Shown one piece after another: positions 37,460-59,798 of a DNA stretch of 64,000 nt. The position numbers were made by a program, and so were the translations under genes. The notes beneath the pieces are model-generated. The model ran no database searches, was not told where the DNA came from, and saw nothing but the letters and a program-made list of their open reading frames with translations. The stretch covers positions 1-64,000 of IMG/VR virus record IMGVR_UViG_3300028840_003082; one strand, 5' to 3'. The DNA comes from a virus. Each line of letters begins with the position of its first letter. Position 1 is the stretch's first letter.

Positions 37460-38020
37460 ATGGCTAGAAGTTGCAAAGTAGACGCAATTGAAAAATTTCG
37501 CTTTACGGTGTCCTTTGATGGGCTCTCCAGAGCGGGATTTCATGAAGTCTCTGTTCCTAAGCAGACCACTACCAAAGGTGAGTACAGAGAAGGTAATGCT
37601 CCGGAAAACATGCAATTGTTTGCTGGCTTGCATCGGATGGAAGATGTTGTGATGTCGCGTGGCGTCACGACTAATAAGGATTTTTACGACTGGGTCAAAC
37701 TGGTCTTCGATCCTGAAAAAGTTCCTGAAGGTCAACCCAACGTGCAGGGACCGGACATTGTTCCTCTGGGTAATGAAGAACTTTATCGCAAAGACATTAC
37801 TATCACTCTTTGGCAGCGTAAGGGTGTTCCCGCCAAGCAATGGGTTCTCTATAATGCGTTTCCAGTAGCGTTTCAACCGGGTTCGGATATGAACGCTTCT
37901 GAGGACGGTGAGAAGTCCATGGAGCAATTGACTGTGGGTTACGAGTCCTTCGTGGAACTCAGTGGCTCGGAGATTACTGCTCCCGAGGCTGGTGAAGATC
38001 AGGATACGCCAGTTACGTAA
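37460..38020 (+). CDS. Tail tube protein 1 (probable major tube), 186 aa
   Basis: ATG 37460 with AAGGAGA. It shows the T4 gp19/tube pattern: VDAIEKFRFTVSFDGLSRAG, EVSVPKQTTTKGEYREGNAP, MSRGVTTNKDFYDWVKLVF and KQWVLYNAFPVAFQPGSDMN with the C-terminal VGYESFVEL. It lies right after the sheath gene and uses more CGN arginine codons than its two paralogues at 38721 and 39407, so I take it as the main tube subunit. Confidence 0.88.
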   Translation: MARSCKVDAIEKFRFTVSFDGLSRAGFHEVSVPKQTTTKGEYREGNAPENMQLFAGLHRMEDVVMSRGVTTNKDFYDWVKLVFDPEKVPEGQPNVQGPDIVPLGNEELYRKDITITLWQRKGVPAKQWVLYNAFPVAFQPGSDMNASEDGEKSMEQLTVGYESFVELSGSEITAPEAGEDQDTPVT

Positions 38021-38720: not shown

Positions 38721-39407
38721 ATGGCTCGGTCATCTAGTGTAGACGCCGTAGAGAGATTCAGATTCAATGTATACGTCTTTAACGTAGGATTTGACCTCTC
38801 TAATGTTGCTAAGAATTTTACTGGGTTTTTAAGAGCTGGTTTCTCTGAAGTTACTTTGCCTCGACAGAATACTCAGGCTATAGAGTACAGAGAAAATGTA
38901 GATCAGGCTCATCCGCAACTTATACCCGGCTTAACTAGATACGAGCCAATCGTATTGAGGAGAGGAGTTACCTCTAGCTCAGACTTTTTTAGATGGGCAA
39001 AAGATACCCACAATCCTTCCGAAATCGTTTCCACAGGTATTCAGAGGCTCAGCGGTGATGCTTCTGCTGCCCCTCCCGCACAAACTGCCGATTTTCGTAG
39101 AGACGTGTTGGTTGTCGTGTATGGGCGAGGTGGTGGAACACAAACGGAAGACCCCACAGGCATCAGTCAAAGAGTCGTGGGAGCTGCTGGAGCGGCTTCT
39201 GGACTATCGGCTCTAGGGGATGTAAAGAAAGCGTGGCTTCTCAGGAACGCCTGGGTATCTTCATATAAACCTGGGGACGACTTATCTGCAACCGAAGATA
39301 CAACGAAGCTGGTAGAGGAAATAGAGCTTCGTTACGAGTCTTTCGAGGAAATCTCACTTGAGGCACTTACAAGTCAGGCCCTATCTCTTGGTACAGGTAT
39401 TCTTTAA
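38721..39407 (+). CDS. Tail tube paralogue 2, 228 aa
   Basis: ATG 38721. It has the same landmarks as the tube protein at 37460: VDAVERFRFNVYVF, RAGFSEVTLPRQNTQAIEYR, LRRGVTSSSDFFRWAKD, AWLLRNAWVSSYKPGDDLSA and LRYESFEEIS. It has insertions near residues 25-30 and 110-160 that would sit on the outside or at one end. It probably forms a special ring such as a tube initiator, terminator or baseplate-proximal ring (inference). Confidence 0.8.
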   Translation: MARSSSVDAVERFRFNVYVFNVGFDLSNVAKNFTGFLRAGFSEVTLPRQNTQAIEYRENVDQAHPQLIPGLTRYEPIVLRRGVTSSSDFFRWAKDTHNPSEIVSTGIQRLSGDASAAPPAQTADFRRDVLVVVYGRGGGTQTEDPTGISQRVVGAAGAASGLSALGDVKKAWLLRNAWVSSYKPGDDLSATEDTTKLVEEIELRYESFEEISLEALTSQALSLGTGIL

Positions 39408-39949
39408 TGGCTAGAAGTAATAATGCAGATCCTTTAGATAGATTTAGATGGAAAGTATATATTGTAGCTCCTGCGGGAACACAGTTTTCTAGAGCTGGTT
39501 TTACTACCTGTTCATCCCCTGGAATTACTATAGATTATAATGCTTATCCCGAAGGTGGAAGTCATATGGTTCCTAGATTGATCCATAATGGAGCCACTTT
39601 TAAACCTATTACCCTTACTAGAGGAGTCATTTCTCAAAAAGGGGTAGATGATTTCTCTAAATGGATGGAAGATGTATTTAAGGCCTTAAATCCTGAACCA
39701 GGCTCCGCCCCTGTTAAAAACTATCGTAGAGATATAGTGATTGAGCATTTAGACAGGGATGGAGATGTAGTGAAAAGGTATACTATGAGAAATTGTGTGC
39801 CTACCGCCTACGAGCCTGCGTCCGATTTTAGTTCTATGGATGAGACAGCCCTCAGTATAGAAACCCTATCATTCAGCTATGAGGGGTTTGAGGAGCATAC
39901 CGAAGGAGACTTAACTTCAGTTTTAGATAACCTAAGAGGCTTGTTCTAA
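39407..39949 (+). CDS. Tail tube paralogue 3, 180 aa
   Basis: ATG 39407 in a TAATG overlap. NADPLDRFRWKVYIV, LTRGVISQKGVDDFSKWME and MRNCVPTAYEPASDFSSMDE followed by FSYEGFEEH place it in the same family as the genes at 37460 and 38721. Its codons are AGA-rich, suggesting lower expression than the main tube. It lies next to the tail chaperone and tape measure genes, so a tube-to-baseplate adaptor is possible, like T4 gp54/gp48. Confidence 0.8.
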   Translation: MARSNNADPLDRFRWKVYIVAPAGTQFSRAGFTTCSSPGITIDYNAYPEGGSHMVPRLIHNGATFKPITLTRGVISQKGVDDFSKWMEDVFKALNPEPGSAPVKNYRRDIVIEHLDRDGDVVKRYTMRNCVPTAYEPASDFSSMDETALSIETLSFSYEGFEEHTEGDLTSVLDNLRGLF

Positions 39950-39961
39950 TAAGGAGGAATT

Positions 39962-40702
39962 ATGCTTATTGAACTACCTTGCGGCATCGTAAAAGATGAC
40001 GTAGTGTACGATCACGTACGAATCAAAGAGCTTACAGGAAAGCAACAAAACTACTTAATGGACTTTGATTTGGCAGGAGACACTCTCGGACACATCCCGA
40101 AAATGGTAAAGGATCTCGCCGTAGAATACCAGACCAAGGATGGTCAGATGGCAGAAATAAAGCCTGAAGAGGCCCTTGACCTTCTGACTACAGATGATAT
40201 TGAAGTTATTCTGGTAAAAATTCGAGAGGCAACTTTTGGTAAGATGTTGGCCATGCAGGTCACTTGTCCTATGTGTGGTAAACAGCAGACAGTCAGTTTG
40301 GACTTGTCTAAGCTTAAAATCAAGAAGCTAAAAAACAAGAAAAAACGTACTGCTAAAATTACGCTAAAAAAATCTAAGAAACAAGTAGTAGTCAGAATGT
40401 TGGGATTACAGCAACTTTTTGACCTTAACAAAGCTATTAGGGAATCCAATAAAGAATTCTACACCACTACCGTAGCCTTGTCTATTCAAGAAATTGATGG
40501 AAAAGTGGATGTCGTGGCAGAAGATATTGAGGAAATCCCCCTGACTGATCTACAACAAGTGGATAAAGCCTTTGATAAGATTCGGGGTTCTATAGATAAT
40601 AAAGTTCAGCATGACTGCGAGGCGTGTAAGTTTGAGTTTGAGACTCCGCTGCCCGTAGTCGAGCCAGCTTTTTTCGCCCCATCGCAGACCCTTTCAATAT
40701 AA
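39962..40702 (+). CDS. Tail assembly chaperone / baseplate-chaperone protein, short form, 246 aa
   Basis: ATG 39962 with AAGGAGG. It has an N-terminal YDHVRIKELTGKQQNYLMDF, CPMCGK (residues ~102-107), a Lys-rich linker, and a C-terminal HDCEACKFEFETPLP. The two Cys pairs probably bind one zinc. This type of protein (T4 base-plate-like zinc proteins) lies between tube and tape measure genes of many myoviruses. Codons 236-238 (GCT TTT TTC) form a -1 slippery site leading to a longer product. It would coat the tape measure during assembly. Confidence 0.75.
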   Translation: MLIELPCGIVKDDVVYDHVRIKELTGKQQNYLMDFDLAGDTLGHIPKMVKDLAVEYQTKDGQMAEIKPEEALDLLTTDDIEVILVKIREATFGKMLAMQVTCPMCGKQQTVSLDLSKLKIKKLKNKKKRTAKITLKKSKKQVVVRMLGLQQLFDLNKAIRESNKEFYTTTVALSIQEIDGKVDVVAEDIEEIPLTDLQQVDKAFDKIRGSIDNKVQHDCEACKFEFETPLPVVEPAFFAPSQTLSI

Positions 40703-40881
40703 TACCTACAGATTACATAGATCATCGATCTGATCTGTTAATGGATTACGGGTATTTAGGCGAAGCCTACAAATGGGGTCCGGACCAGGTTGATGGCCTT
40801 CCGTGGAGTTTTCGGAAGGAATTAATAGAAATTGATAAGACAGCAAGACAGGAAATAGCAAAGGATGGCAGGCGCTCATAG
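39962..40881 (+). CDS. Frameshifted long form of the tail chaperone, about 306 aa
   Basis: If ribosomes slip back one base at T-TTT-TTC (40669-40675), translation continues in the -1 frame to TAG at 40879-40881, adding 68 residues: RPIADPFNIIPTDY..., then LLMDYGYLGEAYKWGPDQVD, then GLPWSFRKELIEIDKTARQE. That extension reads as real protein but has no ribosome-binding site at its only in-frame ATG (40741). The layout (chaperone with C-terminal frameshift, then tape measure with 17 nt overlap) is that of lambda G/GT and P2 E/E'. Confidence 0.75.
40669..40675 (+). promoter_or_regulatory. Programmed -1 frameshift slippery heptamer
   Basis: T TTT TTC in the zero frame has the form X XXY YYZ, the same class as P2's T TTT TTG. 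It is 25 nt before the zero-frame stop. A small hairpin AGATC-ATC-GATCT lies about 40 nt downstream, too far to be a typical stimulator. Confidence 0.75.
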
Positions 40882-43006
40882 TGTAAATATAGTCATTAGT
40901 GCTCACAACAGAGCTTCTAAACCTATAAAACAGGTTCGAAAGGACTTGAGTAGGTTCAGAACTGAGGTTGTACGCTTCAACCGAAATCTGTTTACGGCCA
41001 GTGCAATCATAGCCACTTTTGCCGCTGGATTCAGAAGGGCTTTTAACCTAGCGGGGGTGGGAGCCCAGTTTGAGTTTGTTCGGCAGCAATTCTTAAAGAC
41101 TTTTGGGCCTCAGGACTATCTCCCTACTCTAAAGAAGGCCGCAAGAGGCACCATGGATTCTCTAACCATGATGCAATTGGCTGTTAAAAACTATGCTCGT
41201 GGGCTAAGTAAGTATGAAACAGAAAAGATATTTACTTTGTCCGTGGGAGCTGCAAAGATTTTGGGCACCAGTACTGCCAATGCTGCAAAACAAATGTCTT
41301 CTGCCTTTACCAACTTGAGTGTAAAAGGACTTCAAACATTTCTAGTTGCCTTAAACACCAACAACCAATTCTCCAACATGAACGTCCTTATCCAGAAGCT
41401 GACTAAAGGACTTAACGCTGCAGGTCGGATGACCGAAAACTTTCGTAGGGTAGCTCTAGCCGAGCTATCTAAGGCTCTAATGCAGTTTGTGGATACAGGG
41501 GATAACGCTCTCCAAGTATTTATGGCTGCCAAATCTAGTTTTCAAGATTTGCGTCAGGTCATAGGATCATTCCTAGGAAGAGCTATGGCTCCCCTGGCCA
41601 AACAAGTAGCCATGTTGAACTTTGGTATCTTTGCCAAATTACTACCTATTTTAGATGGTGCAACCGACCACATGAAGAGTTTGCGAACAGGAGTTGTTGC
41701 TCTCGCACAGTCTATCGGCGGGTTGTTAACAATGGTTGGAGGTTTAGTAGGTGGTTGGTCTCTTTTACGTCTACTGTCTGCTACCTTGGGATTTAACTTA
41801 GCCCCATTAATCGGAATTATGGGCGTTCTAGGTGGAGCTTTTTGGGCTGCCAAAGATAAATCTAAAGGTTGGATGGAAACCCTGGCAGATATTGGGGCTG
41901 AAATGAAGTTTTATTTCCAAGCCTTTGCCAGCTATAAAGACGGAATTTCTACCTTCTCCAGAGACGTAGCCATGAGAATTGGTGGAATGAGTGATAAGAC
42001 CCAGGAAAGAATTTTAATGATTGCTAGAGCCTTAGTACACGTCAAACAAGCTCTAATGGGATTTTTTGATGGGGTAAAAGCGGTCTTTGGCCTTGTCGGG
42101 GCAATTGCGGCCAAGGTTGGAAGCGTTATAACAGGTATCGGTAAAGTCTTTGGCATGCATAAGCAGTTTTCCATAGAAACTGGGGCAGTAGTAAAGACAG
42201 GTGGTAAGCTTCTAGGGGTCGGAGCGGCTGCAGGTATTTTGGGAGGTATGGCTTTAGGCGGAGTAAACAAAGTCGCTAGATTGTTTGGCAGAGAAGGATT
42301 TGGAATAAAAGGAGGAAAGTTCTTTGACCGAATCTTTGGAAAGCGTGGAACAAGTGCTACCAAGCCTCTATATGTATTTGATGTTTCCGCAGCTCCGAAG
42401 GGCGTATTAGGTAAGTTTTTTGGAAAAGGTGCGGCAGCCGCAGGTGGAGCCGGGAGTCAGATGAGTTTATTCGGAGGAGCAGCGGCTGGCGGAATAATGG
42501 GCAAAATGGCTGCCTTCATGATGACTAGTGTGGGAGCTGCTTCTTGGACAGCTATTGCTGGAGTGGTTATTGCGGGTCTTTTGGCTGGTGGAATAATTGG
42601 AATTCTGATAGATCACGTAATGTCCAAAATCACTGGAGAAAAGTCCTACTGGATGACAGGAGATGTCGGTCCTACTGGCAGTAGAGTCTCTTTGGAGGGA
42701 ATGACTCCTGAGCAAAGAAAAAGAATGCATGCTGGTATAGGCCAGGGAGAGGTAAGTATTGCTGGTCGAAAGGTAGACACCTCTGAACTTACTGAACAAA
42801 CCAAGGAAAGATTTAGAAATCTAGTTTCTCAGGGAGGTATGGTTTCTACAGCTCAGTTGGAGCGGATATTGTCAGATATGAAGCTGACAAACGAGGAATT
42901 ACTAGAAGTCAATAAGATGATGGAGAGGGACTTGAGTAAAGAACCTTTTCAGTCTGTTAATGACAAACCCAATCAGTGGTCTAATTTTATGGGGCCTAAG
43001 ACTTAA
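40865..43006 (+). CDS. Tail tape measure protein, 713 aa
   Basis: ATG 40865 with AAAGG, starting inside the frameshifted chaperone. Features: a basic amphipathic N-terminus (VRKDLSRFRTEVVRFNRNLF), long helices with hydrophobic segments (IIATFAAGF, SIGGLLTMVGGLVGGWSLL, a Gly/Ala-rich membrane-like stretch near 560-590) and a helical C-terminus. It sets the tube length and is injected first. At 713 aa the tail would be of moderate length (about 1.5 angstroms per residue is the usual rule, giving roughly 100 nm). Confidence 0.85.
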   Translation: MAGAHSVNIVISAHNRASKPIKQVRKDLSRFRTEVVRFNRNLFTASAIIATFAAGFRRAFNLAGVGAQFEFVRQQFLKTFGPQDYLPTLKKAARGTMDSLTMMQLAVKNYARGLSKYETEKIFTLSVGAAKILGTSTANAAKQMSSAFTNLSVKGLQTFLVALNTNNQFSNMNVLIQKLTKGLNAAGRMTENFRRVALAELSKALMQFVDTGDNALQVFMAAKSSFQDLRQVIGSFLGRAMAPLAKQVAMLNFGIFAKLLPILDGATDHMKSLRTGVVALAQSIGGLLTMVGGLVGGWSLLRLLSATLGFNLAPLIGIMGVLGGAFWAAKDKSKGWMETLADIGAEMKFYFQAFASYKDGISTFSRDVAMRIGGMSDKTQERILMIARALVHVKQALMGFFDGVKAVFGLVGAIAAKVGSVITGIGKVFGMHKQFSIETGAVVKTGGKLLGVGAAAGILGGMALGGVNKVARLFGREGFGIKGGKFFDRIFGKRGTSATKPLYVFDVSAAPKGVLGKFFGKGAAAAGGAGSQMSLFGGAAAGGIMGKMAAFMMTSVGAASWTAIAGVVIAGLLAGGIIGILIDHVMSKITGEKSYWMTGDVGPTGSRVSLEGMTPEQRKRMHAGIGQGEVSIAGRKVDTSELTEQTKERFRNLVSQGGMVSTAQLERILSDMKLTNEELLEVNKMMERDLSKEPFQSVNDKPNQWSNFMGPKT

Positions 43007-57773: not shown

Positions 57774-59798
57774 ATGTCCGGTTGGGGAACAGGACCATGG
57801 GGCGGTGGACCCTGGGGCGGAGGAGTTTCTGACCTCAGTCTCGTAAGAGAATTTACTGCCCGAAATTCTAATCCAAATGAAATATCCTTGACATGGAAAA
57901 AACCTCTAGGTTTTCCCAGCGATCAGGAGATAGTAGTTGTTCGACGTAAAGATTCATTTCCTATGGAACTTTACAACGACGACCCTCTCTTTTCTGCTAA
58001 GGTAAACGTCTCTGGCTTCACAGATGTAGTTCAGGTGGAGATATTCCGGGGGTCGTTAATTCGAGGTAGTAACGGAGTGGGTACCGAAGGCAAGCTCACG
58101 GATGCTCTGATGTCTTTTCCTACTTCCCCTTCCCTAAAAGGACGGATATTAAGAGATTCTTATAGTAAAAACTACCGAATAATCAGTAATACAGCCACAG
58201 AGATTTTTATCGATGGGAATGACATCCCAGCAGACGGACAATATGTAGTTTTGGTTGATTTTCCAAACTCCAATGAAGCTGCTATTAGTGGCACCTCCAC
58301 ATCTGTAGGCTCTGGATTTTTAAGAGATACTAGTCAAAGTTTCGAGTTAGAGTCTCTCAGAGATCGTATACTGGTTGATCAGGCAGGTAACAGATTTGTT
58401 ATTATTAATAATACCTTAGACTATATCTCTGTTTCAGGAACTCCCGCGTCGGGGGACTATACCATTTTACAAGAGTTTGCCGACTTTGTTAGTCCCTCGG
58501 AGACAGTTAAAGGTCAGTTCAGTTACGTGGATATTTATGTTAATAGTACAGAAGCAGCAGCTCGTACAGGAACTGGTCTAGAGGATAGTCAATTCTATTA
58601 TTATACTGCTTTTACTCATAAAACTGGTGAAAATGTTGCTCAGTCTGTGTTCTCTACGTTCGGCACTGCAGACGCTACTCAAAGTGCTGCTTTGTCTACA
58701 TTTGATAGAGAGTTCAAAGAGATTCTTCTAAGATATTGGCCTAATGTGTTTAAATTAGGTGACCAGACTGGAGATTTCGAAGACTTGATGGCAGTATTCG
58801 GCTTCGGATTCAACGAGATATATGGTTTTGTTCATACATTTAATTTGACAAATCCTGACCGGATGTACCATACGATTCTACCAAGTTTTACAGAACAATT
58901 AGGTATATCAGTAAGGCAGGTGGGGATAGATACTAATCGACGTATTATTTCAGACCTTCTTCCTACACTTAAACAGAAGGGCTCTAAAGAAGGTATTGTA
59001 GATTTTATAAGAATTATAACTACTTGGGATTGCACTAATGGTACTAAGGATGCCAGCTCTATTGTAGATGATGCCCCAAACCTTAATTCTTTAAGATTCT
59101 ATAGTGACACTTTGGGGTCTGATAATACGCGGTTATTTGGTTTTCAACAGGCTTTTTTAAATGACCCTTTTGTTTCCTACACCTATACTTCAGGAACAGG
59201 TGTAATTCAATGGTCTGCTACAGTGGATTTATCCAACGTAGTTGTGGGAGACTTTTTCATTGACGGAGCAGGGTCGTTTTTCGATATTCTAGGAGTAGAC
59301 AATAGTTCAAATAATATAACTATCGACGTAGGCCAAACAGTAGATACGTCTTCAGGTGGGGATATATATAAGAAGACGCCTCTCACAGATGTGGGCACAT
59401 TCTTCGATACTTTACCCGGCATCATTATTCCTGGGTTCTTTACCTTTAGGGAATTTGTGGTAGAAGTTGAGGACATAGCCTTATTTGTTGGTGAGAGCAC
59501 AAATATAGAGCTTTTTGAAGATATTAGCCGGTTGACAGATTCTACGGCTAACTTCGGCGGTATTAATAATCTCGTAGGTAACTTCTTGATTCCTAAACAG
59601 GGTCAAGTTAATGATATCTTTGAGATTATTTCTAACACCGCAACTACGATTACAGTATCAGGGGTAGCTAGAGACCCAGAACCCGTAGGAGACTATGTAG
59701 TTCTTTCACCCCTGAATACAGCACGATTTAGGGTTATTTTATCTTTGATGCGTTCATTCGCACCATCCAATTCAAGAATGGGAATACAATTTACGTAA
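57774..59798 (+). CDS. Baseplate protein with gpI-like domain and Trp/Gly-rich N-terminus, 674 aa
   Basis: ATG 57774 with AAGGAGT. The first 18 residues are a Gly/Trp repeat (MSGWGTGPWGGGPWGGG). Residues ~20-300 are beta domains, several of the type GRILRDSYSKNYRIISNTAT. The middle (about 310-420) is P2 gpI-like: EILLRYWPNVFKLGDQTGDF, LPSFTEQLGISVRQVG, LLPTLKQKGSKEGIVDFIRI. The module VDLSNVVVGDFFIDGAG follows, and the C-terminus (FRVILSLMRSFAPSNSRMGI) ends the gpI part. It would link fibres to the baseplate rim. Confidence 0.75.
   Translation: MSGWGTGPWGGGPWGGGVSDLSLVREFTARNSNPNEISLTWKKPLGFPSDQEIVVVRRKDSFPMELYNDDPLFSAKVNVSGFTDVVQVEIFRGSLIRGSNGVGTEGKLTDALMSFPTSPSLKGRILRDSYSKNYRIISNTATEIFIDGNDIPADGQYVVLVDFPNSNEAAISGTSTSVGSGFLRDTSQSFELESLRDRILVDQAGNRFVIINNTLDYISVSGTPASGDYTILQEFADFVSPSETVKGQFSYVDIYVNSTEAAARTGTGLEDSQFYYYTAFTHKTGENVAQSVFSTFGTADATQSAALSTFDREFKEILLRYWPNVFKLGDQTGDFEDLMAVFGFGFNEIYGFVHTFNLTNPDRMYHTILPSFTEQLGISVRQVGIDTNRRIISDLLPTLKQKGSKEGIVDFIRIITTWDCTNGTKDASSIVDDAPNLNSLRFYSDTLGSDNTRLFGFQQAFLNDPFVSYTYTSGTGVIQWSATVDLSNVVVGDFFIDGAGSFFDILGVDNSSNNITIDVGQTVDTSSGGDIYKKTPLTDVGTFFDTLPGIIIPGFFTFREFVVEVEDIALFVGESTNIELFEDISRLTDSTANFGGINNLVGNFLIPKQGQVNDIFEIISNTATTITVSGVARDPEPVGDYVVLSPLNTARFRVILSLMRSFAPSNSRMGIQFT

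Follow-up and report, generated by a model that had tools for sequence, protein, structure and literature searches.

Does the gene upstream of the presumed tape measure gene in an uncultured phage encode one protein or two? A 64,000-nucleotide stretch of viral DNA (positions 1 to 64,000 of IMG/VR record IMGVR_UViG_3300028840_003082; hereafter the window) raises this question, because a gene for a 246-aa protein carries a candidate slippery site close to its end and an open −1 frame that runs past its stop codon. A sequence-only reading had proposed a programmed −1 frameshift here, on the pattern of lambda G/GT and P2 E/E′. Comparison with homologues supports the frameshift and points to a different family as its closest model.

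A slippery heptamer upstream of a presumed tape measure gene

The parent gene occupies 39962–40702 (+ strand) and follows a ribosome-binding site and spacer, TAAGGAGGAATT (39950–39961, +), that contains AAGGAGG. Near its end the heptamer T_TTT_TTC lies at 40669–40675 (+) in zero-frame register, with codons GCT (40667), TTT (40670), TTC (40673) and GCC, and the TAA that ends the short form stands at 40700–40702 (+), 24 nt past the heptamer. An open −1 frame spans 40642–40881. Ribosomes slipping after codon 238 would read 68 further codons, from CGC at 40675 to the stop TAG at 40879–40881 (extension with its stop, 40675–40881, +), and parent codons 1–238 with these 68 residues would make a predicted long form of 306 aa. 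The extension overlaps the tape-measure-like gene (40865–43006, +) by 17 nt, reaching past its ATG at 40865. The post-slippage −1 frame holds a single ATG, at 40741–40743 (+), with no Shine–Dalgarno-like sequence upstream of it. The X XXY YYZ heptamer in the zero frame, the 68-codon −1 frame with its 17-nt overlap and the lack of a ribosome-binding site for that frame had all been claimed beforehand, and all three were confirmed.

Among the 52 genes of the window this is the only in-frame TTTTTTC, giving a chance estimate of one per 16,601 codons. The −1 open frame is by itself no proof, as a −1 ORF continues beyond the stop in 29 of the 52 genes, a frequency that reflects the overlap of neighbouring genes in a compact genome; the evidence thus rests on conservation. 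A second in-frame slippery heptamer, TTTTTTA, was observed at position 59153 of the window, within gene 57774–59798.

The parent gene and its neighbourhood

The 246-aa protein, which contains the Cys pairs CPMC and CEAC, matches PF12322, the T4 gp26 family, over residues 18–225 (E = 1.1e-14; score 55 bits, cut-off 24.5 bits) and phrog_150, a baseplate hub family (E = 2.9e-14). By sequence similarity it is a member of PF12322 (T4 gp26/gp51), and we annotate it as a gp26-like short tail assembly chaperone (TAC-N). Its size had been called much larger than that of the usual chaperone; that description was wrong, since 246 aa is normal for the PF12322 family (T4 gp26, 208 aa; KVP40, 282 aa; PA5oct, 284 aa). 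A model of the zero-frame protein was of low confidence (pLDDT 66), gave no significant match in the PDB and, in BFVD, resembled T4-like baseplate hub assembly proteins in structure. The extension is predicted to be helical (helices 12–32, 36–40 and 44–67).

Upstream of the chaperone gene are a sheath gene and three gp19-like tail tube genes, and downstream are baseplate-like genes. The tail tube genes (PF06841) cluster at window positions 37460–38020, 38721–39407 and 39407–39949, with short Lys-rich ORFs between the first two. The 713-aa protein encoded directly downstream matched no Pfam or PHROG family and is presumed to be the tape measure protein from its position and length. The 246-aa gene also occurs, 100% identical, on a contig of 107,565 bases (L001, IMGVR_UViG_3300017963_000208); because this contig is longer than the record that contains the window (67,200 bases), the phage probably has a genome of 107 kb or more.

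Conservation and selection within the clade

Four lineages of the clade were compared: the window itself, L002 (to which L003 is identical over 8,735 bases), L117 and L118, the last two located through the neighbouring tail tube gene. Their gp26-like proteins are 83% (L002), 48% (L117) and 43% (L118) identical to that of the window. T_TTT_TTC and the −1 frame are kept in all four lineages, the heptamer despite synonymous divergence that in most pairs is at or near saturation. Also preserved are the last eight zero-frame codons and the stop that follows them. Between window and L002 only 1 of the 33 nucleotides from the heptamer to the stop differs, as against 27% upstream.

Across 50 extension codons, pairs within the clade have pN of 0.06–0.27 and pS of 0.46–1.03, a pN/pS well below 1; for window and L002 the values are 0.06 and 0.46 (dN/dS 0.08). 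These ratios indicate that the −1 frame of the clade is under purifying selection. The conserved −1 protein sequence, FFRP..DP.NIIPT, begins upstream of 40741, and the ATG at that place is replaced by TGT, AAT or AAC in L002, L117 and L118. Neither of the two results that the sequence-only reading had named as refuting it turned up: the heptamer recurs in these homologues, initiation at 40741 finds no counterpart in them, and an intact −1 frame without a heptamer was encountered neither in them nor in the Bellamy/KVP40 loci described below.

The −1 arrangement in the wider family

A search with gp26 of cyanophage Bellamy gave at least 598 loci, of which the best 80 were analysed together with two KVP40-type loci; the 80 are interrelated, so that counts among them are not counts of independent events. 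An in-register TTTTTTC stands just before the stop, and the −1 frame continues into a short ORF annotated gp51, in 82 of 82 loci (the best 80 of at least 598, plus the two). Within the best 80 of the at least 598 cyanophage loci, the two terminal Phe residues are encoded by TTT (80/80) and TTC (80/80), they are preceded in every case by AGT, TCT or GGT, and TTC is invariant at none of the other conserved Phe columns.

KVP40, Atu_ph07, PA5oct, PX29, phage 65, D479, BUCT608 and LR756511 likewise combine an in-register T_TTT_TTC with a −1 extension. TTTTTTT takes its place in RAS14 and OC, and among the wider −1 relatives only Kuja is without a canonical site. In this Vibrio phage (L110, 2180–2932) the −1 extension is found at AAC CTT TTT CAA, a site that departs from the canonical heptamer.

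Proteins of the window clade are only about 16–22% identical to those of cyanophages and KVP40. Pairwise hhalign comparison of the window extension, as two and then four clade sequences, with other extensions yielded no significant similarity (E = 0.002 with a probability of 13% in the strongest case), and none of the window ORFs was hit by an HMM built from the other extensions together. The window extension is linked to the others by where it lies, by a slip site held in common and by the family to which the parent protein belongs. A motif common to this extension and that of a Streptomyces phage group (AYKW, then I/V, L and R) is a lead only.

Gene tables of 20 annotated relatives other than T4 contain no joined frameshift annotation (0/20), and the extension is often absent from them or cut short. 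Some annotated short ORFs have their start within the conserved extension (L107, 3361–3441; L112, 2960–3052; L015, 4821–4940; L022, 4830–4940) and look like truncated annotations of a frameshift product.

Relation to T4 gp26/gp51 and to other chaperones

T4 gp26 and residues 1–201 of T4 gp51 both match PF12322 (9e-64 and 4e-52), and the rest of gp51, its C-terminus, can be aligned to the extension of KVP40 and the cyanophages (hhalign, 94.9%). Together these matches indicate that T4 carries the short and long forms as two genes, where the window has one; the heptamer was looked for in T4 gp26 and is absent. The window shares with T4 the PF12322 family and the logic of short and long isoforms, and T_TTT_TTC occupies the same Phe–Phe codons, in the same register, in many relatives. 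A 2016 review described G–T frameshifting as conserved in long-tailed phages ‘except T4’ (PMC5009743). Later papers, in the passages that cite Vladimirov et al. 2022 (Virology 566:9), credit that work with identifying the T4-like tail assembly chaperones (PMC10885494, PMC12846349) and report that some T4-like phages have a short gene and a fused long gene (PMC10885494) and that T4-like TAC-N genes contain poly-T frameshift signals (PMC12846349). The link between gp26 and gp51 was accordingly dropped as a new discovery about T4, Vladimirov et al. 2022 preceding it as far as those passages report. Frameshifting of a T4-type chaperone is an already known kind of event, of which the window would be a very distant, uncultured example.

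The analogy to lambda G/GT and P2 E/E′ is better narrowed to the gp26/gp51 (PF12322) family. No Pfam or PHROG match to lambda gpG/gpT or P2 gpE was obtained for either frame. Lambda G/GT differs from the window gene in that no sequence similarity was found between them, the window protein is longer, and the lambda slip site is G-rich where that of the window is T_TTT_TTC. P2 resembles the window in being a contractile-tail phage with a −1 frameshift, and its heptamer is T-rich, but its protein family is unrelated to that of the window by any search run. The chaperones of Pakpunavirus Adele and the Vandenendeviridae resemble the window in their −1 shift on a T-rich motif ahead of a tape measure gene and in a downstream ORF that is usually annotated as a separate hypothetical gene; their motif is GTTTTT (PMC12846349), and the likeness assumes no kinship to PF12322.

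Extensions in the +1 frame, mostly at the same codons

The nearest named relatives of the window are the Streptomyces phages BRock, LuckySocke, GiJojo and pSt2308. They share the order of a PF12322 gene, a conserved out-of-frame extension and a tape measure gene, but differ in that the extension is in the +1 frame, at CTG TTT C, without the heptamer. This extension is conserved upstream of the annotated starts, with pN of 0.02–0.26 against pS of 0.43–0.83. A +1 extension is also present in SP-15, LIS04, GXN1, immuto, Mel-JY01 and LR756508. Most of these shifts fit the terminal Phe codons, as TTT followed by C or T (in immuto, CTT followed by T); the exact place in LR756508 is not pinned. The PF12322 loci noted with a +1 in place of a −1 extension, mostly at TTT-C or TTT-T, are L004, L009, L010, L011, L012, L013, L015, L016, L021 and L022.

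In a tree of the family neither the −1 nor the +1 group forms one clade, and long branches leave the number of switches unsure. We lean towards a picture in which the extended PF12322 form is reached by a −1 shift, by a +1 shift (the BRock group, SP-15, LIS04, GXN1, immuto and Mel-JY01) or, in T4, through two genes, mostly at the same Phe codons, so that the protein would fix the point of the shift while its direction changes in evolution. Among open-access papers we found no published description of +1 extensions in PF12322, and these variants may be the part of the present findings that is new.

Candidate stimulatory elements

In cyanophages a 5-bp hairpin with compensatory pairs follows the heptamer after a 10-nt spacer; it is paired in 86% of cases over 77 distinct sequences and in at most 53% when slid, a signal to which coding constraint may contribute. 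A small hairpin with compensatory pairs about 10 nt after TTTTTTC, overlapping the region of the annotated gp51 ATG, was observed in L018 and the cyanophage loci L025–L104. In the window clade candidate signals are weak and unconserved: we found neither a convincing stimulatory RNA structure 5–9 nt downstream of the heptamer nor a Shine–Dalgarno-like element upstream of it; the best stem of the window starts about 32 nt past the heptamer and is weaker in L002. With no comparable stimulator there, frameshift efficiency in this clade cannot be predicted.

Proposed mechanism and alternatives

The reading we prefer, to which we assign a probability of about 0.88, is that a single gene here gives rise, through −1 slippage, to a short and a long form of a T4-type tail assembly chaperone. 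Site, register, conservation, −1 selection, family membership and gene order are established directly; the occurrence of slippage, the ratio of its products and their assembly role are inferred. Most ribosomes would stay in the zero frame and make the 246-aa TAC-N. A fraction would move one base backwards at U_UUU_UUC, a sequence on which the two Phe tRNAs can re-pair with UUU, and would read on to produce the 306-aa form (TAC-NC), corresponding to T4 gp51. The chaperone role is suggested by the family and by lambda G/GT as reviewed in PMC5009743: by analogy, the short form in many copies and the long form in few would cover the tape measure protein encoded downstream, and the helical C-terminal extension of the long form would recruit tail tube subunits.

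The −1 ORF could instead be a small gene of its own, with translation beginning at ATG 40741 or with ribosomes reinitiating past the zero-frame stop. The window does have this ATG, and KVP40 and many cyanophages have one at or just after the stop; yet its loss in the other clade lineages, the missing ribosome-binding site and the selected −1 sequence upstream of it make a separate gene very unlikely, all the more as the −1 frame of PA5oct has no start codon at all and every start codon of that frame in phage 65 and D479 falls within the conserved domain. Slippage of RNA polymerase on the T6 run, which would yield frame-changed mRNAs, accords with the presence of that run at every canonical site. 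The run, however, stays exactly T6C in codon register and is never longer in 82 of 82 loci (the best 80 of at least 598, plus two), whereas efficient transcriptional slippage in bacteria usually occurs on runs of about nine or more; we regard polymerase slippage here as highly improbable. Errors are common in homopolymers, and a single additional T would join the two frames, so an assembly or sequencing error, or a fused gene in decay, might produce the same picture. To this we give almost no credence, as the same T6 recurs in independently diverged contigs (L002; L117/L118) and in isolate genomes of the family, and the eight zero-frame codons and stop behind it are also preserved.

A genuine frameshift product might also serve elsewhere, for instance as a component of the baseplate hub. 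Databases name the PF12322 family baseplate hub or hub assembly, and gp26 and gp51 are listed as hub assembly chaperones, with genetic reports placing gp26 in the hub (PMC3004832). Against this, T4 gp51 is needed for assembly yet is missing from the particle (PMC3004832), and both the location of the gene, with tail tube genes on one side and a tape-measure-like gene on the other, and the predicted pair of short and long products match the chaperone arrangement. We consider such another role unlikely, and retain the two-form chaperone as the preferred reading.

Implications for the family

The frameshift of T4-type chaperones would thus extend to a very distant, uncultured phage clade, and the comparative support is strong enough for the product to be annotated with confidence. 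Cyanophage and vibriophage gp51 proteins have been described as being without the first ~200 residues (PMC3037559); this apparent truncation would be explained if they represent the part of gp26 that is reached by frameshifting. With its +1 cases at the same Phe codons, a single protein family lets forward slippage be compared with backward slippage in a natural setting.
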